A stretch of 64,000 nt of DNA from Comamonas endophytica (GTDB lineage Bacteria > Pseudomonadota > Gammaproteobacteria > Burkholderiales > Burkholderiaceae_C), in the NCBI RefSeq assembly GCF_023634805.2, contig NZ_CP106881.1, positions 1,364,001 through 1,428,000 on the forward strand, in the 5' to 3' direction. The position numbers were made by a program, and so were the translations under genes. Below the pieces are notes generated by a model. That model was not told the origin of the DNA. It was given only the letters and a program-made list of their open reading frames with translations, and did no database searches. Of this stretch, positions 1-18,758 are shown in pieces. Each line of letters opens with the position of its first letter. The first letter of the stretch is position 1.

Positions 1-355
1 CATGCTGCGCCGGGTCGCCCTGCCCGGACAGCATGCGCTCGGCCAGATGCACCAGCTGCTCCGGGTCCTCGAAGGCCTGGGCCGCATCCAGGTACTCCAT
101 GATGGCCTCGGCCCCCATGATCTCCAGGGGCCGGCCGGCTTCCTTCCTGCGCTCGGAGGAATGCTTGCTCTCCGCCTTCTCGGCATGGTGCATGCTGATC
201 TCTTCGGCCGCGTCGGACAGCATGGTGTCGACGCCATCCACCTGGATCCGCTGCCCGGAAAACTGCCCGACGGACGATTGGCTCCCCTGTCCGGCACGGC
301 TTTGCACTCCGGTGCCATCGACGGAAGCGGTATTGAACGGTTCTATTCGGGACAT
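1..355 (-). CDS. sctW: SctW (YopN/BopN/HrpJ family) T3SS gatekeeper, 3' part missing
   Basis: The reverse frame opens with ATG at 355 and stays open to the left edge, giving about 118 residues. The stretch HLAERMLSGQGDP near the cut end is typical of the HrpJ/YopN gatekeeper domain, and the polar, low-complexity N-terminus is usual for a protein that is itself secreted. SctW proteins sit at the base of the type III export gate and hold back effectors until the translocon is in place. The gene is divergent from the structural operon, and a GGAACC-N14-GTTAC motif lies about 45 bases upstream of its start. The C-terminal domain lies outside the window and cannot be judged. Confidence 0.85.
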   Translation of the reverse strand, partial: MSRIEPFNTASVDGTGVQSRAGQGSQSSVGQFSGQRIQVDGVDTMLSDAAEEISMHHAEKAESKHSSERRKEAGRPLEIMGAEAIMEYLDAAQAFEDPEQLVHLAERMLSGQGDPAQH

Positions 356-400
356 GGTGGGTTCGAGGTGGAGCGGCACGCGCAGGGGCGCGCCTGTGTC

Positions 401-426
401 TGTAACTCCACGGCCGCGCTGGTTCC
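401..426 (-). promoter_or_regulatory. Putative ECF-sigma promoter for sctW
   Basis: On the reverse strand GGAACC (426-421) is followed after 14 bases by GTTACA (406-401). The layout fits an ECF sigma promoter with a GGAACC -35 element, as HrpL-type factors use. The predicted transcript would begin near 394, about 40 bases before the sctW ATG. The same pair occurs at 459-486 on the other strand and at 18733-18758. Assignment to the sigma factor at 17144-17770 is inference. Confidence 0.65.
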
Positions 427-458
427 AACCTAGCAGCGCCCGGACTACAAAATTTCTG

Positions 459-486
459 GGAACTGGCTGACCTGCCCGGTTACTCA
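459..486 (+). promoter_or_regulatory. Putative ECF-sigma promoter for the T3SS operon
   Basis: GGAACT (459-464), a 14-base spacer and GTTACTCA (479-486) repeat the pattern seen before sctW and before the orphan gene at 18692. The expected start point near 491 leaves a leader of about 44 bases before the ATG at 535, close to the spacing at the other two sites. It probably drives the long forward transcript that runs to sctC. Confidence 0.65.
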
Positions 487-534: not shown

Positions 535-825
535 ATGCGCAAAGACACTCCTGAAGCCATCCTGCTCCAGGCCCAGGAACTCATCGAGCGGGTGCAACGC
601 GACCTGGCGGACGGCGACGCCTTCTTTCGCGCGTCTGGCCTGGACCGGCAGGAATTCCATGATTACCTGCAGCACCAGTTGACGCCCCACGAGAAGGAAC
701 AAGCGCGCAAGGCGTTGCGGCAGCAGATGGCGGACATCGAGCAGGAGCTGCGCGAGGAAGCCACGCGCCGCTCCTTTGCCGAGGCTCCGCTGCGCGGCGT
801 GCGGCGCCCGCGCCTCATGGTCTGA
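535..825 (+). CDS. Small helical T3SS-linked protein of unknown function
   Basis: This 96-residue protein is charged, almost certainly helical and probably coiled-coil (Glu/Gln/Arg-rich from about 10 to 80), with no signal peptide or membrane segment. It is the first gene after the putative operon promoter and precedes the tip protein. Size, composition and position suit a small secretion chaperone or co-chaperone, such as those that sit beside YopN/BopN or the needle gene in other systems, but I recognise no specific family. The start has GAAGG about nine bases upstream. The gap to the next gene (826-955) shows no further promoter of the ECF type. Confidence 0.7.
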   Translation: MRKDTPEAILLQAQELIERVQRDLADGDAFFRASGLDRQEFHDYLQHQLTPHEKEQARKALRQQMADIEQELREEATRRSFAEAPLRGVRRPRLMV

Positions 826-955: not shown

Positions 956-1501
956 ATGAGCACCACCGCTGTAAATGCCATCCCTGAAGGACTGACGAGC
1001 GCGGAAATCAGAACCGTGGGTATCGAAACTTCTCTTCTGGCCGTGCAGGCCAACCGGGCCAGCCTCCTGGAAGACCTGCTGAAGGACCAGATGGAGACCT
1101 TGCAGAAGAAAAACGAGCAGATCGCCAAACTCAATACCCTCATGGCCAGCTTGAACGGCATTCTCACGAAATACACCCAGAATGCCAATCCACTCGATGG
1201 CATTCCTAATGGAATGTCAGAAGACGAGATAAAACAATTCAACGAAGCCCTCGCACCCACAGAGATGACAACTGAGAAACTGCTCGGATTTACCTCCGTC
1301 GAAAAATCGAACAAAAGTGCTCTCGACAAAGCCGTCACATCCATCAAGAGCAGCATTGACAACCTGAGCAATACGCAGCAAATGGACATGCTGCGCATAC
1401 AAAGCATTTCCAACAAACGCAATGAAGCCTTTGAAATGATGACCACCTTCATCAAGAAATTCAGCGACATGCTCAGCGCCATCATCAGAAACATGGCATA
1501 G
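956..1501 (+). CDS. T3SS needle-tip/filament protein, Bsp22/EspA-like
   Basis: A 181-residue protein without cysteines. Two long helical stretches (about 25-75 and 115-180) flank a loop, and the C-terminus has heptad character (KKFSDMLSAIIRNMA). EspA and Bordetella Bsp22, which polymerise into the filament between needle and translocon, share this helix-loop-helix plan and length range. The gene lies just before the LcrH-type chaperone and translocators, as bsp22 does in Bordetella. The start has AAGGA six bases upstream. The assignment rests mainly on architecture and synteny. A tip protein of the LcrV/IpaD class is less likely because the protein is too short. Confidence 0.65.
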   Translation: MSTTAVNAIPEGLTSAEIRTVGIETSLLAVQANRASLLEDLLKDQMETLQKKNEQIAKLNTLMASLNGILTKYTQNANPLDGIPNGMSEDEIKQFNEALAPTEMTTEKLLGFTSVEKSNKSALDKAVTSIKSSIDNLSNTQQMDMLRIQSISNKRNEAFEMMTTFIKKFSDMLSAIIRNMA

Positions 1502-1570
1502 GAATCACTGGGCCATGACGCTGCATGGCTTCACGGCGCAGATCCAGGGCATTTCCAACAGGAGAAGAAT

Positions 1571-2074
1571 ATGACGGCAAGCACGGCGGACGTTTCGGAA
1601 ACCGAGCAGCTTTCGGAAAGAATCGTCGAGTTCCTGAGCGCGGGCGGCACGCTGGGGGAACTGCACGGACATGGTGAGGCCCATCTGGAATCACTGTACG
1701 CCCTGGGCCACCATCTGTATTCGAATACCCGGTACCACGACGCCAAGTTGATTTTCGGCTATCTGGTGATACAGAACCACCGCGAGCCGCGCTACACGAA
1801 TGCCTACGCATCCAGCCTGAAGATGACCGGGGACGCAAAGGAGGCGATCAAGTACTACTCGATCTCCTCGATGCTGGACATGGACGATCCCTTTCCCACC
1901 TTCTACACCGCGGAATGCCTGCTGACCTTGAATTTCATCACGGAAGCCAAGGAAGCCCTGGGCTTCGTGCTGCAGCGGTGCGATGCGCCGCAATATTCCG
2001 AACTCAAGGCCCGGGCCGAAGCAATGCTGGGGCTTTTGGATACATCACCCACTGCCGCCCCAAAAAGCGAATAG
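1571..2074 (+). CDS. LcrH/SycD-type translocator chaperone (BcrH1-like)
   Basis: A 167-residue class II T3SS chaperone. The block LESLYALGHHLYSNTRYHDA and the following helical hairpins are the three tetratricopeptide repeats of the LcrH/SycD family (about residues 35-145). Such chaperones bind the hydrophobic translocators in the cytoplasm and keep them soluble and export-ready. The gene lies between the tip protein and the two translocators. An AGGAGA ribosome site sits six bases before the ATG at 1571. A second, divergent copy of the family follows the translocators at 4085. Confidence 0.85.
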   Translation: MTASTADVSETEQLSERIVEFLSAGGTLGELHGHGEAHLESLYALGHHLYSNTRYHDAKLIFGYLVIQNHREPRYTNAYASSLKMTGDAKEAIKYYSISSMLDMDDPFPTFYTAECLLTLNFITEAKEALGFVLQRCDAPQYSELKARAEAMLGLLDTSPTAAPKSE

Positions 2075-2083
2075 GAGAGATTC

Positions 2084-3184
2084 ATGGACTCGATCAACCC
2101 GGGACGCCAAAGCCAACCGATTTATCCAGTTGAGTCCTCGACTCCTGGCGCGCAAAAAGAAGCCCTGGCCAAGGCAATAAAAGATATTTTTGGCTTCGCG
2201 GCGGCCGCTACGGAAAAAAGCAGTTCCGTGAAGGATCATAACGATGCCCCCGTAATTTCGGAATCCAAGGCCATCATCAATCTGGCAGTGGACAGCGTTT
2301 CCGCGTTCATCACCATGATAGACAGTGACCTGCAGAAGAATCGTCAGGCCACGATGGAGCAGGAAATCACCAGGCTCACCGCGAAGTTGAAAAAATTGAC
2401 GGACGAGCGGCTCACCGCCCTCGAGAAGAACCGCGCCGAGCAGGTCAGGGTGAACGCGGAAAACGCGAAGAGAAAATCAAGTGGGGGAGGTTTCTTTGGC
2501 TGGCTGAAGAAAATCTTCAAGGCAGTGGTTGCGGTTTTCGTGACGGTCGCGGCGGTCGCGGCCACGGTAGCCACAGGTGGAGCGGCCGCACCCTTGCTTG
2601 CGTTGTCGGTGCTTTCGCTGGCATCGACCGCTCTCGACATCGCCAGTGACATCGACAAGGCAAGAGGCGGCAAGGGCTTCGACCATATCACGCAGTGGAT
2701 GGACCCCGGCAGCTTAATGGGCAAGGGCATGGGCGCGCTGGCCAAGAAGCTGGGCGCCAGCGACGCACAGGCAGCCATTGTCTCCACCACCTTCGCCATC
2801 GCGACAACGGTTGCCATCGCGGTCGCCACGGCGGTCGTCACGGCCGGCATATCGACTTCGTCGATCCTGAAGGTCGTAGGGCAGGCGGCAGCCATCGGAA
2901 CAGCGCTTACAGGCATTGTCGATGGCGCAATGACCATTGCAGATGGCCTCAAAGACAGGGAAATCGCAGCAATCGAACGCGATATCGCTTCAGTCCAGGC
3001 CCAACTGAAAAGGGTCATTGCCAACTATATGAAAGCCAGTCAATCGCGGGATGAAGTGATGGAAGACTTGAAGAATTTCCTGGAAGGAGCGAAGAAGATT
3101 CCGGAAATAGCATCCCAGATAGTCCAAGCCCGCGGCGCATCCGACTCGCAGATCATCGGCAACATGGCCCCACAAACCGCCTGA
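2084..3184 (+). CDS. sctE: Major translocator SctE (YopB/BopB/IpaB-like)
   Basis: A 366-residue protein with two long hydrophobic regions at about 147-190 and 228-285 (alanine, valine and threonine rich), flanked by amphipathic coiled-coil segments (about 75-130 and 295-345). This is the layout of the larger pore-forming translocator, which inserts into the host membrane as a hairpin. There is no Sec signal, as expected for a type III substrate. The gene starts ten bases after the LcrH-type chaperone, with a GGAGA site. It pairs with the single-pass translocator at 3206. Sequence conservation in this family is low, so the call rests on topology and context. Confidence 0.8.
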   Translation: MDSINPGRQSQPIYPVESSTPGAQKEALAKAIKDIFGFAAAATEKSSSVKDHNDAPVISESKAIINLAVDSVSAFITMIDSDLQKNRQATMEQEITRLTAKLKKLTDERLTALEKNRAEQVRVNAENAKRKSSGGGFFGWLKKIFKAVVAVFVTVAAVAATVATGGAAAPLLALSVLSLASTALDIASDIDKARGGKGFDHITQWMDPGSLMGKGMGALAKKLGASDAQAAIVSTTFAIATTVAIAVATAVVTAGISTSSILKVVGQAAAIGTALTGIVDGAMTIADGLKDREIAAIERDIASVQAQLKRVIANYMKASQSRDEVMEDLKNFLEGAKKIPEIASQIVQARGASDSQIIGNMAPQTA

Positions 3185-3205
3185 GCTTGAAACAAGGAAA
3201 ACACC

Positions 3206-4069
3206 ATGACCGTTTCTTCGACTCAAAACGCTGCACAACATGCAAGGCATGACTTGGTTGGATCGTCGGAAAACCAGGCTGCGAATCGTGCAGATTCCAA
3301 TGTTCTAGCCGAGCAAGCTTCCGTAAACACCCTCGCCCCTCAGGACATACTGGAACATTACAACTTTTCCTCTCTTCGTGAAAGTTTTGAATACTTCTCC
3401 TTGACCGAACCGGAAAAAGAAATCCAAGACAAGCTCCAAGACAAAATAAAAAACACCTTGGACAAGATCGAATCCATGGATGCCAAGACGGTATTGATGG
3501 ACATGGAAGACATCATGGGCCTGATGCTCCAGTTCGCCCAGGAGATGCGAAAGAATGGGCGGGAGGTGCGTGCAGCGAATATGCAGGCCAGCGTCGACAT
3601 GCTCAATGCCGCGGCCGATGAGATCAAGAAGGCCGGCGAGGCGAACTACAAAGCCGCGATGATCACGTCCGCATTGAAAATCCTCAGCGGCGTCATTCAA
3701 ATCGGAGCATCCGCCGCTGCATTCACCCAATCCATGAAATCCGCCAAGGCAATGGCTGCCAAGGATGAAGCCGGCGCTGCCGAGTTCAAAGGAAAGGCAG
3801 ACTTCATCAACGGCCTGGCGCAAAGCATCACCACCATGGCCGACGGAATAGGCGGCATGGTGACTGCGGGTCTCAAAATGGATGCAGCGGAAGCCGATTC
3901 CATGAGGGCCAAATTCGAGGCCTGGTCCAAACAGAAAGATGCCAAATCCAGCGAAGGTGGCGAAGACTTTGCCCACGCGGCCGATTTTATAAAGGCCGTA
4001 TTCGATGCAATGAACAGCACATATCAAGCAAACCATGCAATCAATCACGACATGATTCAAAACTTTTAA
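3206..4069 (+). CDS. sctB: Minor translocator SctB (YopD/BopD-like)
   Basis: A 287-residue protein with one clear hydrophobic stretch (about 150-175, AAMITSALKILSGVIQIGAS), helical flanks and a variable polar N-terminus. It fits the smaller single-pass translocator that completes the pore with SctE. An AAGGA ribosome site precedes the ATG at 3206. The gene is followed within 20 bases by the second LcrH-type chaperone, so both translocators are enclosed by chaperone genes. Codon use is more AT-rich (for example AAA and AAT) than in the neighbouring apparatus genes, a common trait of T3SS-secreted proteins. Confidence 0.78.
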   Translation: MTVSSTQNAAQHARHDLVGSSENQAANRADSNVLAEQASVNTLAPQDILEHYNFSSLRESFEYFSLTEPEKEIQDKLQDKIKNTLDKIESMDAKTVLMDMEDIMGLMLQFAQEMRKNGREVRAANMQASVDMLNAAADEIKKAGEANYKAAMITSALKILSGVIQIGASAAAFTQSMKSAKAMAAKDEAGAAEFKGKADFINGLAQSITTMADGIGGMVTAGLKMDAAEADSMRAKFEAWSKQKDAKSSEGGEDFAHAADFIKAVFDAMNSTYQANHAINHDMIQNF

Positions 4070-4084
4070 TTGATCTCCGAATAT

Positions 4085-4552
4085 ATGCCAGACACCTCAA
4101 ATGCAGATATCGTCAAAAAATTCATTGCCGATCTCGAGGCCCTGCCCTCGCGCGCGCGGCTGGATGATGACGACACGGAAATCATCTATGCAGAGGCCTA
4201 TCAGCTGGTGCAACAGGGCAATTTTGAAAAAGCCGTCAGTCTTTTTTCCATGATTTCCATTTACCGGCCGACCACTATCAAATACTTGGCCGGGCTGGCA
4301 ATCTGCGAGAAGAAGCTAGGGCGCCCTGAATCCGCGGCCGGCATCTATGCCTTCATGGCCCTGATCGAAACCGAGCAGCCACTGCATCACCTGTGCATTG
4401 CCGAATGCCTGCTGCAACAGGGAAAGAAACAGGAAGCGCGCGAAAGCCTGGCGCTGGTCGTGCAATTTTGCGAGGCGAACAGCGGCCACGAGAAGACCCT
4501 GGCGCGCGCCCGGGCCATCGACGCGCTGCTGGCGCATGCCAATGCTGCCTGA
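4085..4552 (+). CDS. Second LcrH/SycD-type chaperone (BcrH2-like)
   Basis: A 155-residue tetratricopeptide protein. Hairpins such as AYQLVQQGNFEKAVSLFSMI and IAECLLQQGKKQEARESLAL mark the repeats of the class II chaperone family. I chose the ATG at 4085; a TTG at 4070 directly after the sctB stop would add five residues, and neither start has a strong ribosome site. It probably serves one of the two translocators, while the protein at 1571 serves the other. Its end overlaps the start of the next gene, so the two are probably translationally coupled. Confidence 0.8.
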   Translation: MPDTSNADIVKKFIADLEALPSRARLDDDDTEIIYAEAYQLVQQGNFEKAVSLFSMISIYRPTTIKYLAGLAICEKKLGRPESAAGIYAFMALIETEQPLHHLCIAECLLQQGKKQEARESLALVVQFCEANSGHEKTLARARAIDALLAHANAA

Positions 4553-4967
4553 TGCCAGCGATATCCGCCTGCTGACCCAGGTCGGCTTCCTGGCCGCCGG
4601 CCGGGGCGACGTGCCGCGGGCGCTGCGCATCTTCAATGCCCTGGCATTGCTGCGGCCCGGCCAGGCGTTCAGCTTCGTGGGGCTGGCCTGCGCGCTGATG
4701 AATGCGGCGCGTGCGCCGGAAGCGGTGCAGAAGCTGCAGGCGGCCTGCCTGCCGCCCGGCCCCGAGTCGGACCTGGTGCAGGCCTTCCAGGGCCTGGCGC
4801 TGCAGCTGGCCGGGCGTGCGGGGGAAAGCACCTACCTGCTGCGCCAGATCGTGCTGCGCGCCGGCAATGACACCCCTTCCGAAGGTGCGCGGCTTGCCGC
4901 CAGCCTGCTGGGCGAAGACCTGGGCGCCGCAGCGCTGCCCGCGTCCGCACGGCCTCCGTCTTCTTGA
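4536..4967 (+). CDS. TPR-type T3SS chaperone, SctG/Bcr4-like
   Basis: A 143-residue protein of helical hairpins (AAGRGDVPRALRIFNALALL, LACALMNAARAPEAVQKLQA), resembling the HrpB1/YscG group of T3SS proteins. It lies immediately before sctI, where Bordetella has bcr4; as I recall, Bcr4 has been described as a chaperone for the inner rod protein. YscG-type proteins instead guard the needle subunit. Both roles fit a small tetratricopeptide-like fold. The gene overlaps the previous one by 17 bases; an ATG at 4542 is an alternative start. Confidence 0.6.
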   Translation: MPMLPDASDIRLLTQVGFLAAGRGDVPRALRIFNALALLRPGQAFSFVGLACALMNAARAPEAVQKLQAACLPPGPESDLVQAFQGLALQLAGRAGESTYLLRQIVLRAGNDTPSEGARLAASLLGEDLGAAALPASARPPSS

Positions 4968-4980
4968 TTCAGGAATTGCC

Positions 4981-5400
4981 ATGGAAATCACCGCCCTTCT
5001 TGCCGCTGCGCGCCCCGAGCCTCTGATGGGCGCGGGGGTGGCGCCGCCGCCGGATACCGCTGCGACGCAGCGCTTCGCGGCCCTGATGCAGGCGCCTGCC
5101 GCTGGCGATGTCGCCGCGGCCCCGCCTGCCCTGGCCCCGGCGTCCGTCGCTCCGGCGGCTCCGGACTCCCACAGCGTCGGAGACCGCATTCTCCAGGGCA
5201 TGCAGGGCGTGTCCACCGAGATGCGCTCCGCCTGGACCAAGGTCTCCGACATGCTGAGCCCGGGCCACCCGATGCTCAGCATGCAGGAGATGCTCGGCCT
5301 GCAGCTGCACCTGACGCAGGCTTCGATGCAGTTCGAGCTGGTGGGCAAGGGCATCAGCCGTTCCACGCAGAATTTCGACCAACTGGTGCGCGTGCAATGA
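4981..5400 (+). CDS. sctI: T3SS inner rod protein SctI (BscI/YscI-like)
   Basis: A 139-residue protein with a Pro/Ala-rich first half (to about residue 60) and a helical C-terminus that ends in the pattern LGLQLHLTQASMQFELVGKG, typical of YscI/PrgJ-type rod proteins that assemble inside the basal body. Its stop overlaps the sctJ ATG by four bases (ATGA). The Ala/Pro-rich part is probably disordered. The identification is supported by the conserved tail and by its position just before sctJ. Confidence 0.82.
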   Translation: MEITALLAAARPEPLMGAGVAPPPDTAATQRFAALMQAPAAGDVAAAPPALAPASVAPAAPDSHSVGDRILQGMQGVSTEMRSAWTKVSDMLSPGHPMLSMQEMLGLQLHLTQASMQFELVGKGISRSTQNFDQLVRVQ

Positions 5401-6206
5401 ACTTCCGCTTTTCTCCCCGGTGGCTGCGCCGCGGGTTGCAGCTGGCGCTCCTGGGAAGCTGCCTGGTGCTGGCCGCCTGCGTCGGCCGTGTGGAACTGAT
5501 GGGCGCGATTGCCGAGGAAGAGGCCAACGAAGTGGTGGCGGCGCTGATCAAGGCGCAGATTCCCACCGACAAGGTCGCGGGCAAGGATGGCATGGTCGGC
5601 GTGCGCGTGGCCGCCAGCGACGTGGGCCGCGCGCTGGAAGTGCTGCGCGCCAACGGGCTGCCGCGCGAGCGCTTTGCCGGCATGGGCCAGGTCTTCAAGA
5701 AGGAAGGGCTGATCTCCTCGCCGCTCGAGGAGCGCGCGCGCTATGTCTACGCGCTGTCGCAGGAGCTGTCGAACACCCTGTCCAAGATCGACGGCGTGCT
5801 GGCCGCGCGCGTGCATGTGGTGCTGCCCGAGCGCGGCACGGCCGGGGAAACCGGCGTCGTCTCCACGGCTGCGGTCTTCATCAAGCACCAGGACGGCTAC
5901 AACCTGGAAATCATCCAGCCGCAGATCCGCCGCCTGGTCACCAACAGCATCCCCAGCCTGAGCGCCGACCGGGTGTCGGTGGTGTTCGTGGCCTCGCAGG
6001 CGCGCGCCGGCGCCGTGCCCGCCGAGCCGGCGCAATCGGTCTGGGGCTTCGAGGTGCCGCAAGGCGCGGCCGCTGGCCTGTCCTGGCTGATCTGGTCGCT
6101 GGCCACCGTGGCGGCGCTGGCGCTGGCGGCGCTGGGTTATGGTGCCTGGCACTTCCGCGCGATGCTGCGACCCGCGCTGGCATCGTTGACCACGAGGGCC
6201 CCGTGA
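5397..6206 (+). CDS. sctJ: T3SS inner-ring lipoprotein SctJ
   Basis: A 269-residue lipoprotein of the YscJ/PrgK/FliF family, forming the inner membrane-side ring of the basal body. The signal peptide ends in the lipobox Leu25-Ala-Ala-Cys28. Two ring-building domains follow (about 32-90 and 100-195), with family hallmarks such as the stretch around EEEANEVVAAL and RVHVVLPE. A C-terminal membrane helix lies at about 220-245. It begins with ATGA overlapping the sctI stop and overlaps the next gene by four bases, so it sits within a tightly coupled operon. Confidence 0.93.
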   Translation: MNFRFSPRWLRRGLQLALLGSCLVLAACVGRVELMGAIAEEEANEVVAALIKAQIPTDKVAGKDGMVGVRVAASDVGRALEVLRANGLPRERFAGMGQVFKKEGLISSPLEERARYVYALSQELSNTLSKIDGVLAARVHVVLPERGTAGETGVVSTAAVFIKHQDGYNLEIIQPQIRRLVTNSIPSLSADRVSVVFVASQARAGAVPAEPAQSVWGFEVPQGAAAGLSWLIWSLATVAALALAALGYGAWHFRAMLRPALASLTTRAP

Positions 6207-6880
6207 ACACCGCGCACCCCGCCCTCTGGTCGCAGCCGCTGCAGCGCTTCAACCTGCTGCCCAGCCTTGGCCTGCATGCCAGCCGTGCGCAGCATTGGCT
6301 GCCCGGCCATGCCGACGCGGCCGCCTGGCTGGCACAGCCGGCAAGCCACAGGCAATGGCACCGGCGCTGGTCGCAACTGCTGCTCGAGCGCCTGCAAGCC
6401 GACGCCGAGCCGGTGCGCGACCTGGCGCATCCCGCGCTGCCGCTGGCGCTGGCCAGCCCGGCGCTGCTGCACGCCACGGGGCGCCATGCCGGATCGCTGC
6501 TGCTGGGCAAGGACCTGCGCCGGCGCATTGCGCGCGCCTCGGTGCACGAGGCCGAGCAGGCCATTGGCGCCGCGGCGCTGCGCTGGGTCTGTGCCCAGGG
6601 CGCCGCCTTGCATCCGGGGCTGAATGACCCGCAGCCCTGGCTGGGCCGGGGACTGGCCCAAGGCGCCGACGCGCTGGGCGCGGGCGTGCTGGCCCAGTGC
6701 TGGCATGACGCACCCGCGCCCCTGCGCCGGCGTGCCGACTGGAAGCTGCCCATGGACGCCGAAACTCCCGCCTCCCGCGAGGCCAGCGGCATGACACCCA
6801 TCCAGGCACGCCACATGTGCCTGCAGATCCTGCTTTTCCTGGAGCCCGAATGGCTTTCCTCGTTTCCCGCGACCCACTGA
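6203..6880 (+). CDS. sctK: T3SS sorting-platform protein SctK
   Basis: A 225-residue protein starting with GTG at 6203 (GTGA overlap with the sctJ stop). The pattern LLLGKDLRRRIARASV and the surrounding helices match the YscK/OrgA-type accessory protein that links the cytoplasmic sorting platform to the ring. It is soluble, leucine and alanine rich and without membrane segments. The order sctJ-sctK-sctL-sctN is standard. The family is weakly conserved, so synteny carries much of the weight. Confidence 0.8.
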   Translation: MNTAHPALWSQPLQRFNLLPSLGLHASRAQHWLPGHADAAAWLAQPASHRQWHRRWSQLLLERLQADAEPVRDLAHPALPLALASPALLHATGRHAGSLLLGKDLRRRIARASVHEAEQAIGAAALRWVCAQGAALHPGLNDPQPWLGRGLAQGADALGAGVLAQCWHDAPAPLRRRADWKLPMDAETPASREASGMTPIQARHMCLQILLFLEPEWLSSFPATH

Positions 6881-7491
6881 CGCCGCAGCGCAAGCTGCAG
6901 GCACGCATCGCGCCGGGCACCCGCGTGCTGCGCGCCGCGGACGTCGACGCCTGGACCCAGGCCGAAGGCCTGGTCGCTGCCGCCCGTGCCCAGGCCGAGG
7001 CAATCGTCGGCGCGGCCCAGGCAGCCCATGACGAGGAATGCCGGCGCGGCTACGCCGAAGGCCTGGCCGAAGCCCAGATGGTCCAGGCCGAGAAGATGAT
7101 GGAAACCGCGAGCCGCACCATCGAATATTTCTCCCAGGTGGAGACCGACATGGTGGCGCTGGTCATGGGCGCGGTGCGCAAGATCATGGAGGACTACGAT
7201 GATGCCGACCGGGTGGTGACCGTCGTCAGGAATGCGCTGGCGGTGGTGCGCAACCAGAAACAGATGACGCTGCGCCTGCATCCGCAGCAGGTAGAAACGG
7301 TGCGCTCGCGCATCAATTACCTGCTGTCCGCCTTTCCCGGCGTGGGTTATCTGGACATCGTCGCCGATGCCCGCCTGGGGCTGCATGCCTGCGTCGTGGA
7401 AAGCGAGATCGGCCTGGTCGAGGCGAGCATCGAAGGCCAGCTCGCGGCGCTGGAAAGAGCCTTCCAGAAAGTGCTGGGCAGCCGCATATGA
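6850..7491 (+). CDS. sctL: T3SS stator protein SctL
   Basis: A 213-residue member of the YscL/FliH family, which tethers and regulates the SctN ATPase and forms the spokes of the sorting platform. An alanine/glutamate-rich helix (about 35-85) is followed by the conserved C-terminal domain (about 100-210, including [20 protein letters not shown]). I chose ATG 6850, which overlaps the sctK end by 31 bases; a frame start at 6817 would add 11 residues. Its stop overlaps the sctN ATG by four bases. Confidence 0.9.
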
Positions 7492-8855
7492 ACCCCTCCG
7501 GCCCGCCCGGCGCGCGCGCGTTGCGCCAGTTCGACTACATCACCGAGATGATGCAGCTGGCGCTGGACGACGCGCCCATGCTGCAGATCAAGGGCCGCGT
7601 GACCCAGGTGATCGGCACCATCATCAAGGCCGTGGTGCCGACGGTGAAGGTCGGCGAGGTCTGCCTGCTGCGCAACCCGGGCGAGGATTTCGAGATGAAG
7701 GCCGAGGTCGTGGGCTTCGCGCGCGACGCGGCCCTGCTCACGCCCATCGGCGACATGTACGGCATCTCCGCCGCCACCGAGGTGATTCCCACGGGCCGCG
7801 CGCACCTGGTGCCGGTGGGCTTCGGCCTGCTGGGCCGCGTGCTCGACGGCCTGGGCCGGCCGCTGGACGTGGCCGAGCGCGGCCCGCTGGAGGCGAGCAA
7901 GTTCTACCCCGTGTTTGCCGAGGCCCCCGATCCGCTCGGGCGCCGCATCATCAGCCAGCCGCTGGAGCTTGGCGTGCGCGCGCTCGACTCCGTGCTGACC
8001 TGCGGCGAAGGCCAGCGCATGGGTATTTTCGCGGCCGCCGGCGGCGGCAAGTCGACGCTGATGGGCATGCTGGTCAAGGGCGCCGACGTGGATGTGACCG
8101 TCGTGGCGCTGATCGGCGAGCGCGGCCGCGAGGTGCGCGAGTTCCTGGAGCACGAGCTGGGCGAGGAAGGCCGCAGGAAAAGCGTCATCGTCTGCGCCAC
8201 CAGCGACAAGTCGTCGATGGAACGCGCCAAGGCGGCCTACGTGGCCACGGCCATCGCCGAGTATTTCCGCGACCAGGGCAAGAAGGTGCTGTTCCTGATG
8301 GATTCGGTGACCCGCTTCGCGCGCGCCCAGCGCGAAATCGGCCTGGCTGCGGGCGAGCCGCCGACGCGCCGCGGCTACCCGCCCTCGGTGTTCGCCACGC
8401 TGCCCAAGCTGATGGAGCGCGTGGGCATGAACGACAAGGGCTCGATCACCGCGCTCTACACGGTGCTGGTCGAGGGCGACGACATGACCGAGCCGATCGC
8501 CGACGAAACCCGCTCGATCCTGGACGGCCACATCGTGCTGTCGCGCAAGCTGGCTTCGTCCAACCACTATCCGGCCATCGACGTGCTGGCTTCGACCTCG
8601 CGCGTGATGAACGCCGTGGTCACGCCGGAGCACAGGCACATGGCCGGCCGCCTGCGCGAGCTCATGGCCAAGTACGAGGAGGTCGATCTGCTGGTCAAGA
8701 TCGGCGAGTACAAGCGCGGCGGCGATCCGGCCACCGACGAGGCCATCGACAAGATCGAGGCCATCCGCCGCTTCCTGAGGCAGCGCACCGATGAAAACTC
8801 CAGCCTGCCGCAAACGCTGGCGGCGCTGGAACAACTGACAGGCCGTGCGCGATGA
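7488..8855 (+). CDS. sctN: T3SS ATPase SctN
   Basis: A 455-residue ATPase homologous to the F1 beta subunit, FliI and YscN. It strips chaperones from substrates and helps to energise export. The Walker A loop reads AAGGGKST with the lysine at 188, and the Walker B region [21 protein letters not shown] is intact. Length and domain order are normal. Its ATG overlaps the sctL stop and its stop overlaps the sctO start. This is the most strongly conserved soluble T3SS component and fixes the identity of the locus. Confidence 0.97.
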
Positions 8856-9355
8856 ACATGCTCGACAGTCTGCTGGCGATCAAGCGCTTCAGGCAGGGGC
8901 AGGCGGAAACCGCCATGCGCCAGCAGCGCCAGGCCCTGGAGCAAGCCCGGCAGGAACGCGTTGCCGCCGAGGAACTGCTGACCCGGCTGCTGGCCGACGG
9001 CGTGCTGGCCGAACAGCGGCTCTACGCCGGCCTGTACACCCGGCTGGTGCACCTGGGCGACATCGAAGACGTGCGCCTGGCCGTGGCCGCGCTGCGCCAG
9101 GGCGAACAACGCCAGCAGGATGCACGGGACCGGGCACAGCGCGGACAGGAAGAAGCGCAACAGTATTTCGACCAGGCGCGCGCACGGCACCAGGAAGCGG
9201 CGCGGCAGACCTCCAAGTACATCGAACTGTCCAGCAGCTTCTCGGCCACCCGGGCGCTGGCGTCCGAGCGCCGCGAAGACCTCGAGATGGAAGAGGCGGC
9301 CAGCGTGCGCCGCGAACGCGAGAACTGGGGCGCAAGCGATGGAGACAACCCATGA
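8852..9355 (+). CDS. sctO: T3SS stalk protein SctO
   Basis: A 167-residue, cysteine-free protein made almost wholly of charged helix (Arg/Gln/Glu/Ala rich), the expected two-helix coiled coil of the YscO/FliJ family that acts as central stalk of the SctN hexamer. The start overlaps the sctN stop (ATGA) and the gene ends in ATGA at 9352, the usual coupling to the next gene. In this case the coupled start opens only a 24-codon frame (see 9352-9426). Confidence 0.85.
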
Positions 9356-9426
9356 GCTCCGCGCAGTCCCTCCATCCGCACCGTCTTGCCCTGGCTGCCC
9401 GCCCCGAGAGCACCTATGCCCTGTGA
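9352..9426 (+). CDS. 24-residue coupled ORF, upstream peptide or displaced SctP N-terminus
   Basis: An ATG overlapping the sctO stop in the same ATGA fashion as other junctions of this operon opens a frame encoding [20 protein letters not shown] and four more residues, then stops at 9424-9426. The sctP reading frame is a different one and its first ATG (9416) lies inside this ORF's end. Either this is a short leader that feeds ribosomes into sctP by reinitiation, or it is the original SctP N-terminus separated by a one-base indel. The sequence does not decide between them. Confidence 0.4.
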   Translation: MSSAQSLHPHRLALAARPESTYAL

Positions 9427-10789
9427 ACGCCCTCTTTCCCTGGACCGCGCCACGCCCTCCGGCATGGCGCCCGATACGCCCTGCGGCGCCACCAGCCATG
9501 CTGCGCCCGCTCCAGCGGCCGCGGCTCAGGTCAAATCCTGGCGCGAGGCCCGTGCCCGGCAGCGCGATCCCGGCGAAGCGCCCGAAGCGGAGACCCTTGC
9601 CATGACCGGTCCGTTCGACCTGTTTCAAAACACGTCCGCATCCCCCACCCCGAAGCCGGCAGAAGGTCAAGCCCAGGCCATTGGCGCTGCTGCACTGCAG
9701 CCGCAACCCGGCCTGTCTCCGGGGGCCCAGGTCCAGGATGGCCTGCCCCAGGATGGCCTGCCCCAGGATGGCCTGCTCCAGGATGGCCTGTCCCAGGATG
9801 GCCTGTCCCAGGATCGCCTGCCCCAGGATCGCCTGTCCCAGGATCGCCTGTCCCAGGATCGCCTGCCCCAGGATCGCCTGGCCGAGGATGGCCGGCCCCA
9901 GCCCCGGCCTGGCCTGGCCCAGGGCACGCTGCCCCACCTGGCCCCGCTCCAGGGTGCGCTGCCCGGGACTGGACAGCCCCAAGACATGCCGGCCGAGGGC
10001 ATGCCGGTCGAGGGCGTACCGGCCGAGGGCGTGCTGCCTCGAATGGCCCCGCCTCCAATGGGCACGCCTCAGATTGCATTGTCCCAGGGCGGCCTGCCCC
10101 AGGACGGCCTGCCTGGTGATGGCCTGCCCCAGGGAGGGCCGTCTCTGAACAGCCTGGCTCAGGGCGCTCTGCCGCAGGATCTGCTTCATGGCGGCCTGCC
10201 TCAAGGCAGCCCGTCCGAAACGGCGCAGGCCGAGCTGGCTGCCAAGGCCCTACCCAAGCCCTGGGAAATGCTTTCCTCGGCGCCAATGGCCGGCACCCCG
10301 CCGCAGGGCATGGATCGCTCCCAGGAAACGGCGCAGCCTGGCAATGCCGGGGCGCCCGCGGAACCGGCGCCCGCCGATTCCTCCGAAAGCAGCGCCCTGG
10401 TCAAGCCCTTCGATCTGTTCCACTCCCTGCCGCTCGCCCGCCCGGCGGAAACAGCGGACCCGACGGCGGTATCGGCTGCGCTGGAAAGCACCCTGATGCA
10501 GATGGCAACGCGTCTGCTGGTCAGTGACGGCAGCGACGGCCAGCGCCGGGTGCAGATCGAAATCGCGGAGGAACAGCTGCCCGGCGTGGTCGTGGATGTG
10601 TTCGAGGACGAGGGGCGTGTGGTCACCCGCTTCACCTGCAGCGATGAAGCCTCGCGCGAACGCCTGTGCTCGGGCGCGCCCTGGCTGGCGGACAGCCTGG
10701 TGGAGCGCCTGCAGCGCGACAGCCGCGTGCAGGTGCAGACCAACGATCCCGGGGATCCCCGCCTGCTGCAGATCGATGCCAACTGCTGA
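9416..10789 (+). CDS. sctP: T3SS needle-length ruler/substrate switch SctP
   Basis: A 457-residue protein if started at ATG 9416. The middle is low complexity and Pro/Gln/Gly/Leu rich, with 11 consecutive pentapeptides of the type QDGLP (residues about 107-161) and further related units near 225-265. The C-terminal 110 residues form the compact FliK/YscP-type switch domain (ESTLMQMATRLLVSDGSDGQ, IEIAEEQLPGVVVDVFEDEG). SctP sets needle length and switches export from early to late substrates. Alternative starts are TTG 9386 and ATG 9602, the latter with GGAG nine bases upstream. The short motif PFDLF occurs near residues 65 and 331, with a related KPWEML near 281. Confidence 0.82.
   Translation: MPCERPLSLDRATPSGMAPDTPCGATSHAAPAPAAAAQVKSWREARARQRDPGEAPEAETLAMTGPFDLFQNTSASPTPKPAEGQAQAIGAAALQPQPGLSPGAQVQDGLPQDGLPQDGLLQDGLSQDGLSQDRLPQDRLSQDRLSQDRLPQDRLAEDGRPQPRPGLAQGTLPHLAPLQGALPGTGQPQDMPAEGMPVEGVPAEGVLPRMAPPPMGTPQIALSQGGLPQDGLPGDGLPQGGPSLNSLAQGALPQDLLHGGLPQGSPSETAQAELAAKALPKPWEMLSSAPMAGTPPQGMDRSQETAQPGNAGAPAEPAPADSSESSALVKPFDLFHSLPLARPAETADPTAVSAALESTLMQMATRLLVSDGSDGQRRVQIEIAEEQLPGVVVDVFEDEGRVVTRFTCSDEASRERLCSGAPWLADSLVERLQRDSRVQVQTNDPGDPRLLQIDANC
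9734..9898 (+). repeat. 15-bp tandem repeat, 11 units, in the sctP ruler
   Basis: Eleven contiguous 15-base units of the form CAGGATGGCCTGCCC or CAGGATCGCCTGTCC code for QDGLP, QDGLL, QDGLS, QDRLP, QDRLS and QDRLA, with a final diverged EDGRP. The unit length is a multiple of three, so loss or gain of units would keep the frame. The G-type units (1-5) and C-type units (6-10) form two blocks, which points to stepwise local expansion. Confidence 0.95.
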
Positions 10790-10812
10790 TTTCCCTCTTT
10801 CCCCCATTCCCG

Positions 10813-11940
10813 ATGTCAAGCTCCCTCTCCGCCCCGTTCCTGTCGGCATTGCCGCAGCTGTCGCGCAACGAGGCGCAGGCAAGAACGACCATTGCCCAGC
10901 GCGCCAGGGAGATGCCCGTGCGCTGTGGTGGAACGCAGTGGCTGGCCAGCCTGCGTCCCGTCATCCAGTCCCCCTGGCCAGCGGTGGCCGGCGACACCGT
11001 TGCCGACATCGAATGGGCGGGCGCGCAGCTGCAACTGCAGCTGCCCGAAGCGGCCGCCGATCAAATGCTGTCGGCCTTGCTGGAGGGCGCAGCGCTGGCG
11101 CAGCTGCCCGGGGAAATGCAGGCCGCGGCGCTGAGCGCGGCCCTGAGCGAGCTGATGGACCGCCTGGAGCAGCTGGGCCGCGGCACGCCGCAGATACGCG
11201 GCATCGTGCGCGAACCGATGGCCGCCGCGCTGCCCCATGCGTTTGCCCTGCGGCTCGATGCCGTGAACGGCACGCAATCCATCGCCGGGCTGCTGCGCAC
11301 CGACAGCCTGGGCTTGCTGCTGATCGCCGGACTGGCCTCGGCCCTGCCGCCGCATGCGGGCCCATTGGCGAATGACTCCCTGCCCCTGACGCTGCGCCTG
11401 GACATCGGCTACGCCACCGTCTCGGTGCAGGAGCTGCAGCAGCTGGGCCTGGGCGATGTGCTGCCGATGGAGCGCAGCCTGGTGTCGGCCGAGCGGGTGC
11501 TGTGGCTGCAGGCGCCTGGCGCCGGCGGCCTGCACGTGCACCTTCCCGCCATGCCCGCCGAAACCGCCGCCACTGAAGTGTTTCCAGACGATGCGCAGTC
11601 CCTGGAGCCCGCGCGGGAAGCGCGCGCCGCAGCCCCCTTTCTCACCGTCGTACAGCCCTGGACCCCCGCCATGCCCACTCCTGAGAATCCCCCGGCCGAC
11701 GCTGCCGGTTTCGATGCCATCCCGGTGCGCCTGTCCTTCGACCTCGGCGAGATCTCCCTGGCACTTGCCGAAGTGCGCGCGCTCCAGCCCGGCCAGGCCA
11801 TACGCCTGGAGCACCCGGTGGCCAGCGCCGTGCGCATCCGCGCCAACGGCGCGCTGATCGGCGAGGGCGAGCTGGTCGAGATCGATGGGCAGCTGGGCGT
11901 GTCCATCAGCCGGCTGTTTGCCCCGAAGCCCGCGCCATGA
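10813..11940 (+). CDS. sctQ: T3SS C-ring/sorting-platform protein SctQ
   Basis: A 375-residue member of the YscQ/FliM-FliN family. The C-terminal SpoA domain (about residues 300-370) has the recognisable block LSFDLGEISLALAEVRALQP followed by GEGELVEIDGQLGVSISRLF. The protein forms pods of the cytoplasmic platform together with SctK and SctL. ATG 10813 is used; the open frame extends upstream only into sctP. An internal ATG at 11671 could yield the short C-terminal form known from YscQ, but I see no clear ribosome site before it. The stop overlaps the sctR ATG. Confidence 0.9.
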   Translation: MSSSLSAPFLSALPQLSRNEAQARTTIAQRAREMPVRCGGTQWLASLRPVIQSPWPAVAGDTVADIEWAGAQLQLQLPEAAADQMLSALLEGAALAQLPGEMQAAALSAALSELMDRLEQLGRGTPQIRGIVREPMAAALPHAFALRLDAVNGTQSIAGLLRTDSLGLLLIAGLASALPPHAGPLANDSLPLTLRLDIGYATVSVQELQQLGLGDVLPMERSLVSAERVLWLQAPGAGGLHVHLPAMPAETAATEVFPDDAQSLEPAREARAAAPFLTVVQPWTPAMPTPENPPADAAGFDAIPVRLSFDLGEISLALAEVRALQPGQAIRLEHPVASAVRIRANGALIGEGELVEIDGQLGVSISRLFAPKPAP

Positions 11941-12584
11941 ACACCTTCGACCCGATCACCCTTGCGGTTCTGCTGGCGCTGATGGCGCTGATGCCGGTCC
12001 TGGTCGTCGTGAGCACCTCGTTCCTCAAGATCGCCGTGGTCATGTCGCTGCTGCGCAATGCGCTGGGGGTGCAGCAGATGCCCCCGAACCTGGCCCTGTA
12101 CGGCATGGCGCTGATCCTGTCCGTGTATGTCATGGCGCCCGTGGGCATGCACATGTTCGACCGTCTCACGGCCCAGCCCGACACGCTCAAGAGCGTTCCC
12201 GCGCTGATCAGCGGCGTGCGCGACGGCGCTGAACCGCTGCGCGAATTCATGCTCGGGAACAGCCGGGTCGAGCAGCGTGATTTCTTCGTGCGCACCGCCC
12301 GGCGCCTGTGGGGGCCGCTGCTGTCGGAAGGCATGACGGAGCGGGATTTCATCGTGCTGATGCCGGCCTTCGTGGTGTCGGAGCTGACGGCCGCCTTCCA
12401 GATCGGTTTTCTCATCTATCTGCCGTTCGTGGTGATCGACCTGATCGTCTCCAACATCCTGCTGGCCATGGGGATGATGATGGTCTCGCCCGTCACGATC
12501 TCGCTGCCGCTCAAGCTGTTCCTGTTCGTGATGGTCGACGGCTGGTCGCGCCTGATCCAGGGACTGGTGCTTACCTACGTCTGA
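11937..12584 (+). CDS. sctR: T3SS export-gate membrane protein SctR
   Basis: A 215-residue member of the FliP/YscR family. Four hydrophobic segments (about 5-25, 40-65, 150-185, 190-210) and the signature VSTSFLKIAVVMSLLRNALG are present. SctR assembles with SctS and SctT into the helical export gate in the inner membrane. It starts in ATGA overlap with sctQ, and sctS follows 20 bases later. Confidence 0.97.
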   Translation: MNTFDPITLAVLLALMALMPVLVVVSTSFLKIAVVMSLLRNALGVQQMPPNLALYGMALILSVYVMAPVGMHMFDRLTAQPDTLKSVPALISGVRDGAEPLREFMLGNSRVEQRDFFVRTARRLWGPLLSEGMTERDFIVLMPAFVVSELTAAFQIGFLIYLPFVVIDLIVSNILLAMGMMMVSPVTISLPLKLFLFVMVDGWSRLIQGLVLTYV

Positions 12585-12604
12585 ACCGCACCCGAGGACC
12601 CGCC

Positions 12605-12874
12605 ATGCAATCCGTCGATGTCGTCTCGTACTTCACCCAGGCGCTGTATCTGGTGCTCTGGCTCTCGCTGCCGCCGATCGTCGTCGGCTCCATTGTCGGC
12701 ACGCTGTTCTCGCTGCTCCAGGCGCTGACGCAGATCCAGGAGCAGACCCTGTCGTTCGGCATCAAGCTGATCGCCGTGTCCGTGACCATCCTGCTGACCG
12801 CGCGCTGGGTCGGCGGGGAAATGTTCAATTTCACCGTGCAGATCTTCGACGCCATGCCTGCGCTCGGGCGCTGA
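12605..12874 (+). CDS. sctS: T3SS export-gate membrane protein SctS
   Basis: An 89-residue member of the FliQ/YscS family with two membrane helices (about 15-40 and 50-72) joined by the conserved loop ALTQIQEQTLSFGIKL. It packs around the SctR-SctT gate. Length and hairpin topology are as usual for the family. Confidence 0.95.
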   Translation: MQSVDVVSYFTQALYLVLWLSLPPIVVGSIVGTLFSLLQALTQIQEQTLSFGIKLIAVSVTILLTARWVGGEMFNFTVQIFDAMPALGR

Positions 12875-12900
12875 GCGCCCAGGCGCGGCCAAGGAACCCA

Positions 12901-13704
12901 ATGGATTTTCCGGTTACTTACGAGCAGGCCCAGTCGTACGTCAAGACGCTGGCTCTCACCCAGCCGCGCATCCTCGCCATGTTCCTCGTCCTGCCGCTGT
13001 TCAACACCCAGCTCATTCCCGGAATGCTGCGTTTTGCCGTGGCCGGTGCCCTGGGCCTGGTGCTGGTGCCGGCACTGTATCCCGCGGTGATGCCGGTCGA
13101 GATCAAGCCGATGGCGCTGGTGCTGCTCATGCTCAAGGAGGCGTTCCTCGGCTTCGTGATCGGCTACCTGGCAGCCATTCCCTTCTGGATCTTCGAGGCC
13201 GTGGGCTTCCTGGTCGACAACCAGCGCGGCGCCAGCATTGCCTCCACGCTCAACCCGCTCACCGGCAATGATTCCTCACCGCTGGGCATCCTGTTCAACC
13301 AGGCCTTCATCGTCTTTTTCCTGATCAGCGGCGGCTTCGCACTGCTGCTGGGAACGCTCTATGACAGCTTCACGCTGTGGAGCGTGTTGCAGTGGACACC
13401 CGAGCTGCGCGCCGAGTCGGTGCCCCTGCTGCTGGGACAGCTCGACCGGCTGGTACGCATGGCGCTGCTCCTGTCCGCTCCTGCCCTGGTGGCCATGTTC
13501 CTGGCCGAGTTCGGCCTGGCCCTGGTGAGCCGCTTCGCCCCCCAGCTGCAGGTGTTCTTCATGGCCATGCCGATCAAGAGCGCCCTGGCCATGCTGGTGC
13601 TGATGCTGTATGCCCCCTTCCTGTTCGACTACGGCGCCGACGAGGTGCTGGACGTGGGCCGGATCCTTCCCTGGCTGCGCGACCAGTGGGGGCCTGGCGG
13701 CTGA
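12901..13704 (+). CDS. sctT: T3SS export-gate membrane protein SctT
   Basis: A 267-residue, very hydrophobic member of the FliR/YscT family with about six membrane segments. The stretch EAVGFLVDNQRGASIASTLN PL is a clear family hallmark. It completes the export gate. It begins 26 bases after sctS and ends 15 bases before sctU. Confidence 0.95.
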   Translation: MDFPVTYEQAQSYVKTLALTQPRILAMFLVLPLFNTQLIPGMLRFAVAGALGLVLVPALYPAVMPVEIKPMALVLLMLKEAFLGFVIGYLAAIPFWIFEAVGFLVDNQRGASIASTLNPLTGNDSSPLGILFNQAFIVFFLISGGFALLLGTLYDSFTLWSVLQWTPELRAESVPLLLGQLDRLVRMALLLSAPALVAMFLAEFGLALVSRFAPQLQVFFMAMPIKSALAMLVLMLYAPFLFDYGADEVLDVGRILPWLRDQWGPGG

Positions 13705-13719
13705 ACGCCGGCAACGTCC

Positions 13720-14769
13720 ATGAGCGAGAAAACCGAGCAACCCACGGCCAAGCGCCTGCGCGATTCGCGCAAGAAGGGCGATGTCTCCTACAGCAAGGAC
13801 TTCACCCAGACGCTGCTGATCCTGGCCATCTTCGGCTACCTGCTGGGCAACAGCGGCCACATCGTCGAACGCCTGGGCCAGATGATCCTGATGCCCAGTG
13901 CCCTGCTGCGCCTGAACTTCGAGGAGGCGGCCAACACCCTGCTCATCGAACTGCTGAGCGCCGCCGCCTGGCTGGTGCTGCCCTTCGTCGGCATCGTGCT
14001 GGGCATAGGCATCCTGGCGGATGCCTTGCAGGTCGGCGTCCTGTTCGCTTTCGACAAGATCAAGCCCTCGGGCAAGAAGCTCAACGTGCTGGAGAACGCC
14101 AAGAACGTGGTGTCGAAGAAGAACCTGGTGGAGTTCCTCAAGTCCTGCATCAAGATCGGCTTCCTGTCCACCCTGCTGACCCTCCTGATCCGCGACGCCC
14201 TGCCGATATTGACCAGCATCCCGGACGCCGGGCTTGCGGGCCTGGGCCAGATCATGGCCAGCCTGCTCAAGACCATGCTGGTGCACATCGGCCTGGCCTA
14301 TTCCGCCATCGCGCTGGCCGACTTCGTCTGGCAGCGCCTGAACTACCGCAAGGGTCTGATGATGTCCAAAGACGAAATCAAGCAGGAATACAAGCAGATG
14401 GAGGGCGACCCTCACATCAAGCACCAGCGCAAGCAGCTGCACCAGGAGATGCAGCACGAAAGCGCGGTGCAAAGCGCGCGCGAAGCCACCGTGGTGGTGA
14501 CCAACCCGACCCACCTGGCGGTGGCGCTGCGCTATGACGAGGAGGAAACGCCGCTGCCGATGATCCTCGCCAAGGGCGAAGGGGCGCTGGCCCAGCGGAT
14601 GATGCAAGCCGCGCGCGAAGCCGGTGTTCCGGTGATGCAGAACATCCCGCTGGCACGCGCATTGACCGCGCAGGGAGAGGCTGGTCAATACATTCCCACC
14701 GAACTGATCGAGCCGGTGGCCGAAATCCTTCGGCTGCTGCAGCAGCTCGACCAGCAACCGCCGACCTGA
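13720..14769 (+). CDS. sctU: T3SS autocleaving switch protein SctU
   Basis: A 349-residue member of the FlhB/YscU family. Four membrane helices (about 30-55, 80-115, 140-165, 185-205) lead into a cytoplasmic domain with the autocleavage motif Asn262-Pro-Thr-His265 intact. Cleavage there, together with SctP, switches substrate specificity. The N-terminus EKTEQPTAKRLRDSRKKGDV is canonical. All key residues are in place, so the export apparatus looks functional. Confidence 0.97.
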   Translation: MSEKTEQPTAKRLRDSRKKGDVSYSKDFTQTLLILAIFGYLLGNSGHIVERLGQMILMPSALLRLNFEEAANTLLIELLSAAAWLVLPFVGIVLGIGILADALQVGVLFAFDKIKPSGKKLNVLENAKNVVSKKNLVEFLKSCIKIGFLSTLLTLLIRDALPILTSIPDAGLAGLGQIMASLLKTMLVHIGLAYSAIALADFVWQRLNYRKGLMMSKDEIKQEYKQMEGDPHIKHQRKQLHQEMQHESAVQSAREATVVVTNPTHLAVALRYDEEETPLPMILAKGEGALAQRMMQAAREAGVPVMQNIPLARALTAQGEAGQYIPTELIEPVAEILRLLQQLDQQPPT

Positions 14770-14781
14770 AGGTCCACGCCC

Positions 14782-15189
14782 ATGCAGCCCATGCACATTT
14801 CCACGCAGGCCACGGCCTCCCTGCTCGGCCGCTATGCAGCGCACCACGGCATTCCAATGGCGCCGGGCGCCTCCACCTTGCAGCTCGTCATCGACCGCCG
14901 CTATCAGCTGCGGCTGCAGGCGCTTGCCGGCGAGGGCGTCATGGTCAGTGCCTACCTCAAGCCCCTGCCCGAGGCCGGCCGGGCGCGCGACGATCTGCTG
15001 CTGGCCTTCGCCCGGATGGCCTGCGGCACCATGAAAGAGCAGCCCACGACCTGCAGCGTGGACGCACGCGAGCGGGCCGTATGGCTGCAGTTGCCCGCCC
15101 GTGCCCAGAGCCTGCAAGACATCGACGATGCCGTGGGCACCTTCGTCAATTCACTTGCCTTTTGGTCCAAAGCCAGCGCCACCCTTTGA
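14782..15189 (+). CDS. Putative class I T3SS chaperone (BscW position)
   Basis: A 135-residue acidic-to-neutral protein with an alternating strand and helix pattern (LQLVIDRRYQLRLQ, MVSAYLKPLP, RAVWLQLPAR) like the CesT/SycE-type chaperone fold. It lies between sctU and sctC, where Bordetella has bscW. Such proteins bind effectors or the gatekeeper. ATG 14782 is used and 14791 is possible. No specific partner can be read from the sequence. Confidence 0.6.
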   Translation: MQPMHISTQATASLLGRYAAHHGIPMAPGASTLQLVIDRRYQLRLQALAGEGVMVSAYLKPLPEAGRARDDLLLAFARMACGTMKEQPTTCSVDARERAVWLQLPARAQSLQDIDDAVGTFVNSLAFWSKASATL

Positions 15190-15217
15190 ATGCGGCCCTT
15201 GCCGGCGCTTTCCTTCC

Positions 15218-17770: not shown

Positions 17771-18095
17771 ATCGGACACCACCCGCGGCTGAATTAAGCA
17801 AAATGGGCTTACCCACGTAACCAATTCTTACATGCTGCGTTGGGTTTGTATACCTTGGCATTAATCCAACGTTGCACGACCACAGCAGCGGTTTTGCCAG
17901 CTGGCCCAAAGTGTCGCCTGCACGGGTTTTCAGAGGGGAAACCAGTACTCCAATGGAGTGAACCAATGGATTGCCGGCTATATATCCATGATGCTCAAAG
18001 AGTGCTTTTGCACCGCATCCGGTGTGCCAGCCCGGCCTGAAACCAAGCGCTTGAATCGGGTATTTGTAACAAATACCGCAGCAATCAGATGCGTT
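17771..18095. other. Intergenic region upstream of the sigma gene
   Basis: The stretch of 325 bases is AT-richer than its surroundings and contains no convincing gene. It should hold the promoter of the sigma gene (reverse strand, start at 17770). It contains an interrupted palindrome at 18059-18077 and a partial one near 18014-18024. No GGAACC/GTTAC pair was found. Confidence 0.6.
18059..18077. promoter_or_regulatory. Interrupted palindrome, possible operator
   Basis: GGTATTTG-TAA-CAAATACC gives two perfect 8-base arms around three bases. It lies just downstream of the orphan gene (stop at 18096) and about 290 bases upstream of the sigma gene start. There is no T-run on either strand, so a dimeric repressor or activator site is more likely than a terminator. 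No regulator can be assigned. Confidence 0.4.
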
Positions 18096-18692: not shown

Positions 18693-18732
18693 GGCGATGG
18701 AGACCTTCTCGTAAAGGAGCTTCTAGTTTTTA

Positions 18733-18758
18733 GTAACGATTCGCCGGCTCGTGGTTCC
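18733..18758 (-). promoter_or_regulatory. Putative ECF-sigma promoter for the orphan gene
   Basis: On the reverse strand GGAACC (18758-18753) is followed after 15 bases by GTTACTAA (18737-18730). The start of transcription would lie near 18725, about 33 bases before the GTG at 18692. The match to the two sites at 401-426 and 459-486, in both elements and in leader length, is the main evidence. Confidence 0.6.

Follow-up and report, generated by a model that had tools for sequence, protein, structure and literature searches.

The T3SS island of Comamonas endophytica opens in both directions from one short gap, and two sites of the same bipartite form lie in this gap, back to back. The question that the locus raises is whether these sites are promoters and, if so, which sigma factor reads them. 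The window analyzed here is the whole 64,000-nucleotide stretch of DNA, and the island fills its left part and runs on beyond its left end.

The divergent site pair between sctW and btc22

The first-pass annotation placed GGAACC-N14-GTTAC (minus strand) and a GGAACT-N14 counterpart (plus strand) within 401-486, and both are found there, GGAACC-N14-GTTAC at 402-426 and GGAACT-N14-GTTAC at 459-483; this earlier observation is correct and, given the counts below, stronger than claimed. The features of the gap and of its flanks are as follows.

1-355, minus strand: sctW, bopN-type gatekeeper, 5' part (the gene runs on left of the window)
399-426, minus strand: candidate sctW promoter, with GGAACC at 421-426, N14, GTTAC at 402-406 and A at 399; in full, GGAACC-N14-GTTACAGA
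427-458: 32-bp centre between the two sites, a possible UP-like element or regulator site
459-486, plus strand: candidate btc22-operon promoter, GGAACT-N14-GTTACTCA
535-825, plus strand: btc22-like T3SS chaperone gene that heads the rightward operon (NF051897, E 6e-21, 74.7 bits, under the cut-off of 100)
956-17092, plus strand: remainder of the rightward T3SS operon (LcrH chaperone, translocators, sctN, sctR, sctT, sctU, sctC and others)

The motif is thus present both at sctW and at the bsp22-side operon. From the end of GTTAC to the start codon there are 46 nt on the sctW side (ATG at 355) and 51 nt on the btc22 side (GTTAC end at 483, ATG at 535), so that the sites combine the properties of ECF promoters: two parts, near-fixed spacing and promoter distance to the start, with the longest nearby frame taken as the start. 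The centre contains AAATTT, one of 3 copies in the window; this word occurs in 6 of the 14 divergent-pair centres compared, 2 of those 6 belonging to close relatives.

Two conserved half-sites at near-fixed spacing would also suit a dimeric regulator, that is, a bipartite operator bound by a transcription activator instead of -35 and -10 elements. This reading is very improbable: the two half-sites do not repeat each other in either inverted or direct orientation, they lie at promoter distance from the start codons, the A three bases after the core resembles the hrp-box -10, and no sigma-70 promoter match was found within 300-600.

Spacing of the motif across the genome

In the window, GGAACY-N14/15-GTTAC has four matches, against 0.01 expected from dinucleotide shuffles, and the two beyond the earlier pair are at 12893-12920 (plus strand) and 18730-18758 (minus strand, N15). 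Across the whole genome, GGAACY-N-GTTAC with gaps from N6 to N30 has 19 matches, of which 13 fall at N14 and 2 at N15, with only 4 for the other 23 spacings (15 of 19 in 2 of 25 spacings, binomial p 1e-13); with the two sites of the first-pass annotation omitted, the peak still holds 13 of 17. This spacing control, in which both words are unchanged and the gap is varied, took over from the reversed pattern as the main control because the words of the latter differ in frequency. The reversed pattern yields 13 own-genome matches, against 15 for the motif, a count that taken by itself would suit chance matches; chance is nevertheless a negligible explanation, being contradicted by the spacing control, the nature of the downstream genes and the recurrence across species.

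The third base after GTTAC, a position outside the search pattern, is A in all 15 own-genome N14/15 matches. When any base is allowed before TTAC, only two extra correctly spaced sites appear, and therefore the G matters. Of the concrete binding rule proposed in the first-pass annotation, the motif itself holds, but the rule is too narrow and should read GGAAC(C/T, sometimes G)-N14/15-GTTAC-NNA.

The sigma factor gene and further sites in the island

Beyond the end of the rightward operon, a sigma factor gene and its neighbor are encoded on the opposite strand.

17144-17824, minus strand: ECF sigma factor gene, BtrS type (Sigma70_r2, Sigma70_r4_2; likely ATG at 17770)
18096-18692, minus strand: bspR/btrA, anti-sigma factor gene (NF052467, 166.8 bits, cut-off 160)
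18730-18758, minus strand: candidate bspR promoter, GGAACC-N15-GTTACTAA, with the GTTAC end 40 nt 5' of the bspR start

The sigma factor is assigned to the Bordetella BtrS kind because a BspR-family anti-sigma factor gene adjoins its gene and because of the T3SS gene set, the arrangement of a BtrS/BspR-type regulon within a T3SS locus. The locus is of the Bordetella Bsc/Btr kind. In its leftward arm, SctW, SctX, SctY, SctV and SctD exceed the curated cut-offs, with both SctW (TIGR02568) and TyeA (TIGR02511) above cut-off for the gatekeeper (L009:11246-12355), and SctF is slightly under its own; in the rightward arm, SctN, SctR, SctT, SctU and SctC exceed theirs, and LcrH-type chaperone and translocator-like genes are present. 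A phosphatase-like gene near the leftward arm (L009:47-835, plus strand), with sub-threshold SpoIIE/RssB matches, is possibly BtrU-like.

One more site emerges once the Y is dropped from the GGAACY pattern: GGAACG-N14-GTTACTCA, with the GTTAC end 66 nt 5' of the sctX frame (G000:C1:1362812-1362839). The 335 bp 5' of btrS contain no GGAAC-N-GTTAC. A motif site is present in the bspR locus of 11 out of 12 genomes, counting G000, and relatives of an Achromobacter genome have one in 17 of 20 loci. As an aside on the sigma relatives, a record titled Pantoea (L035) encodes a sigma factor 81% identical to BtrS and is listed directly above Acidovorax records, so that its label looks wrong or mixed.

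The motif copy at the sctT start

The remaining match in the window overlaps a coding sequence.

12893-12920, plus strand: motif that spans the sctT ATG (12901) and places GTTAC in codons 5-6

Among 14 tabulated sctT starts, 11 encode VTY at the place of the motif and 10 of these 11 carry it, whereas the remaining three have neither VTY nor the motif. The sctT start of L043 encodes VTY but with GTGAC, and fails the motif rule. Elsewhere in the 11 VTY-encoding sctT genes, GTT is rare, at 7 of 231 valine codons, so that the motif retains an otherwise uncommon codon. Outside the tabulated starts, those of L036 and L069 have a copy as well; altogether, the loci with the sctT-start motif are L035-L042, L044, L060 and L069. 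This copy is likely to be an internal promoter for sctU onwards, the rival explanation being an effect of the translation start on codon choice combined with GGA as a ribosome site. A frame in L046 that, by eye, resembles SctU has a site 108 bp upstream.

Genes preceded by the motif outside the island

The first-pass annotation proposed to test whether genome-wide hits concentrate before T3SS and effector genes, and the outcome is positive. Four of the 15 exact matches are in the island (sctW, btc22, the sctT start and bspR); of the 11 outside it, 5 precede effector- or chaperone-type genes with families above cut-off, 2 are weaker cases, 3 were counted neither way and 1 was rejected. The ten retained outer sites precede or adjoin the following.

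Site 1 (L149:455-3016, minus strand): IpgD/SopB-family protein of 854 aa, Pfam 177 bits against a cut-off of 22, with the motif just upstream
Site 2: CesT chaperone, then a protein of 659 aa whose PI3/PI4-kinase match is sub-threshold
Site 3 (L153): CesT chaperone, then a 697-aa protein
Site 4: three consecutive CesT chaperone genes
Site 5: ankyrin protein of 590 aa
Site 6, weaker (L152): Btc22-like, far under its cut-off (NCBIfam 24.6 bits, cut-off 100; E 0.035 in direct comparison)
Site 7, weaker (first site of L153): 141-aa frame without a family; over 130 residues, it is 42% identical to part of the downstream 697-aa protein
Site 8 (L151): 185-aa protein whose similarity to the L150 protein is limited to 23 residues (E 4e-4)
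Site 9 (L155): beside an Ala-Pro repeat region
Site 10 (L157): 351 bp before an adhesin-like gene

The eleventh site lies inside proS (L148) and was rejected as a chance match; as exact matches in the own genome, this site and the three counted neither way are a counterpoint to the reading of the motif as the BtrS signal. The recurring signal is likely to front genes for injected proteins and their chaperones, and can therefore be used for finding such genes.

Recurrence and controls in other genomes

A single scan of genome contigs gave 54 loci with relatives of the sigma factor, of which 49 (905,548 bases) were used, leaving out a 43-residue fragment (L084) and four Planctomycete-type loci (L085-L088). 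In these 49 loci, GGAAC-N15-GTTAC, which has the same gap as GGAACY-N14-GTTAC, has 50 matches and the N16 form 5, with 2 for the remaining gaps between 8 and 25. Of the two controls on these loci, the word-swapped one has 9 matches overall and the reversed one has 41, with 2 at N15 and 3 at N16. A count against the motif comes from 3 of 12 relatives (G401, G407 and G409), in which the reversed pattern outnumbers it (totals, 148 against 103).

The divergent arrangement itself recurs. SctW was detected in 25 of 41 genomes queried, and 23 of the 25 sctW loci contain at least one GGAAC-N15/16-GTTAC, with a divergent pair in 13 of the 25; these counts take in some loci that are cut off where a contig stops and a few sites that have no +3 A. 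In ten orthologous site pairs, picked for their match to the motif, identity of the spacer and flanks averages 29-33%, and the unselected +3 A is present in 20 of 20 sites. The 99 distinct sites give the following consensus: A at +3 in 97, T or C after GTTAC in 92, C or T after GGAAC in 91, and a weak AT directly 5' of GGAAC (48 sites with T next to it, 48 with A one base further out).

The peak goes together with BtrS. In 16 relatives chosen for having no bspR match (12, together with all four same-genus genomes listed), there is no spacing peak, with 8 of 147 matches at N14/15 against 11.8 expected; in BtrS-bearing genomes, the corresponding figure is 39 of 138 for the five of 16 genomes listed in full. 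A pattern extended by the +3 A and open to any base after GGAAC puts 68 of 136 matches at the peak spacing in 8 of the 20 BspR-positive genomes. Three genomes show a weak peak, namely, G407 (9 of 51), G405 (5 of 22) and G518 (2 of 10). In G495, 22 of 39 matches are at N15/16 (L208, L209, L211-L224); one of these is the bspR promoter, and the other 21 precede 11 ankyrin genes, one CesT gene, one gene for a SpoIIE/Cache-domain phosphatase, one aspartyl-protease-like gene and 7 genes without a family. The ankyrin-repeat genes behind these sites make up a large set of candidate effectors, and the phosphatase gene is perhaps BtrU-like.

Two of the 8 control matches at N14/15 lie near a sigma factor gene of G014 that is 40% identical to BtrS.

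L210:2272-2296, plus strand: motif site near the BtrS-like sigma factor gene
L210:3522-3546, minus strand: motif site near the same gene
L210:3562-4179, minus strand: the sigma factor gene

No T3SS genes were noticed around it in 8 kb inspected by eye. One of the two sites precedes a 131-aa frame that matches no Pfam family and has a leader-like stretch ending in GG.

These comparisons bear on a further alternative, namely, that the sites are genuine ECF promoters but that their sigma factor is a different ECF factor, such as one of the RpoE-like kind, with BtrS as a bystander. The own genome holds six matches to the BtrS query, five of them besides BtrS itself, and because GGAAC-like -35 elements are common to several ECF groups, such a factor keeps a small share of the probability. 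Its role is nonetheless unlikely: each of the 16 bspR-less relatives has between 3 and 16 matches to the sigma factor query and yet they lack the spacing peak, the sites are dense at BtrS loci and T3SS genes, and the 40%-identical sigma factor of G014 likewise has two sites nearby.

A model of probable divergent promoters

Very probably, then, the two sites supply the -35 and -10 elements of divergent promoters, and the sigma factor that reads them is the island's own, of the BtrS (BrpL) type. The best reading of the promoter is the BtrS (BrpL)/BspR kind of ECF promoter, GGAAC(C/T)-N14/15-GTTAC-N-N-A. RNA polymerase with BtrS would recognize GGAAC(C/T) at -35 and GTTAC-N-N-A at -10 across a gap of 14-15, and transcription would start a few bases 3' of GTTAC. 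Leftward transcription would then produce sctW and its neighbors, and rightward transcription btc22 and the translocator/apparatus operon, while the same code would fire sctX, bspR and the scattered effector and chaperone genes. By analogy with Bordetella, BspR may close a feedback loop by holding BtrS until BspR itself is secreted.

A broader proposal, which we favor by a modest measure, is that the BtrS-family sigma factors across beta-proteobacteria share a distinct, deeply conserved code, GGAACY-N14/15-GTTACNNA, that a scan for it, with the spacing control and the +3 A applied, recovers whole, mostly unnamed effector regulons, and that it includes the sctT-start promoter and also serves the sigma factor of G014.

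The model yields a sequence rule, concrete enough to be checked, for a T3SS sigma factor that does not belong to the HrpL group of plant pathogens. In many little-studied beta-proteobacteria, T3SS-linked genes can thus be sought by a simple genome scan, with the spacing peak as an inbuilt control. With one site before sctX and another inside the apparatus operon, the predicted regulation may differ from that in Bordetella.

Comparison with known systems

The hrp box of HrpL is GGAACC-N15/16-CCACNNA, and RpoE/AlgU-type ECF promoters have the form GAACTT-N16/17-TCTGA. The present motif shares with the hrp box the GGAACC -35, the distance to the -10 core (15-16) and the A three bases after the core, and in both cases the sigma factor drives T3SS and effector genes. 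The difference lies in the -10: the core is TTAC, nearly always after G, instead of CCAC, so that GTTACNNA stands in place of CCACNNA. The hrp-box pattern GGAACY-N14..17-CCACNNA has no match in the window, a weak test given 0.09 expected. The first-pass annotation treated GGAAC as the -35 of HrpL-type factors; it is not distinctive in this respect, as many ECF sigma factors use a GGAAC-like -35. RpoE/AlgU-type promoters, too, have a GGAAC-like -35, but differ in the -10, and the targets here are T3SS genes.

The closest parallel is with BtrS (BrpL) and BtrA (BspR) of Bordetella, where, in the account given by a review, the sigma factor gene likewise adjoins a BspR-family gene (BP2234/BP2233 in its Table 3) (PMC7498569). 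According to the same account, BtrS activates bsp22 and bopN, and the secreted BtrA/BspR is thought to antagonise BtrS, although the binding data conflict; in B. bronchiseptica, bscC-bscO and bcrD-bscF are described as depending little on BtrS (PMC7498569). Set beside the sites at sctX and the sctT start, this low dependence counts against the model. Compared with the Bordetella regulon as this review presents it, the island described here differs in having sites at sctX and at the sctT start, and the genome in having many scattered effector-type targets.
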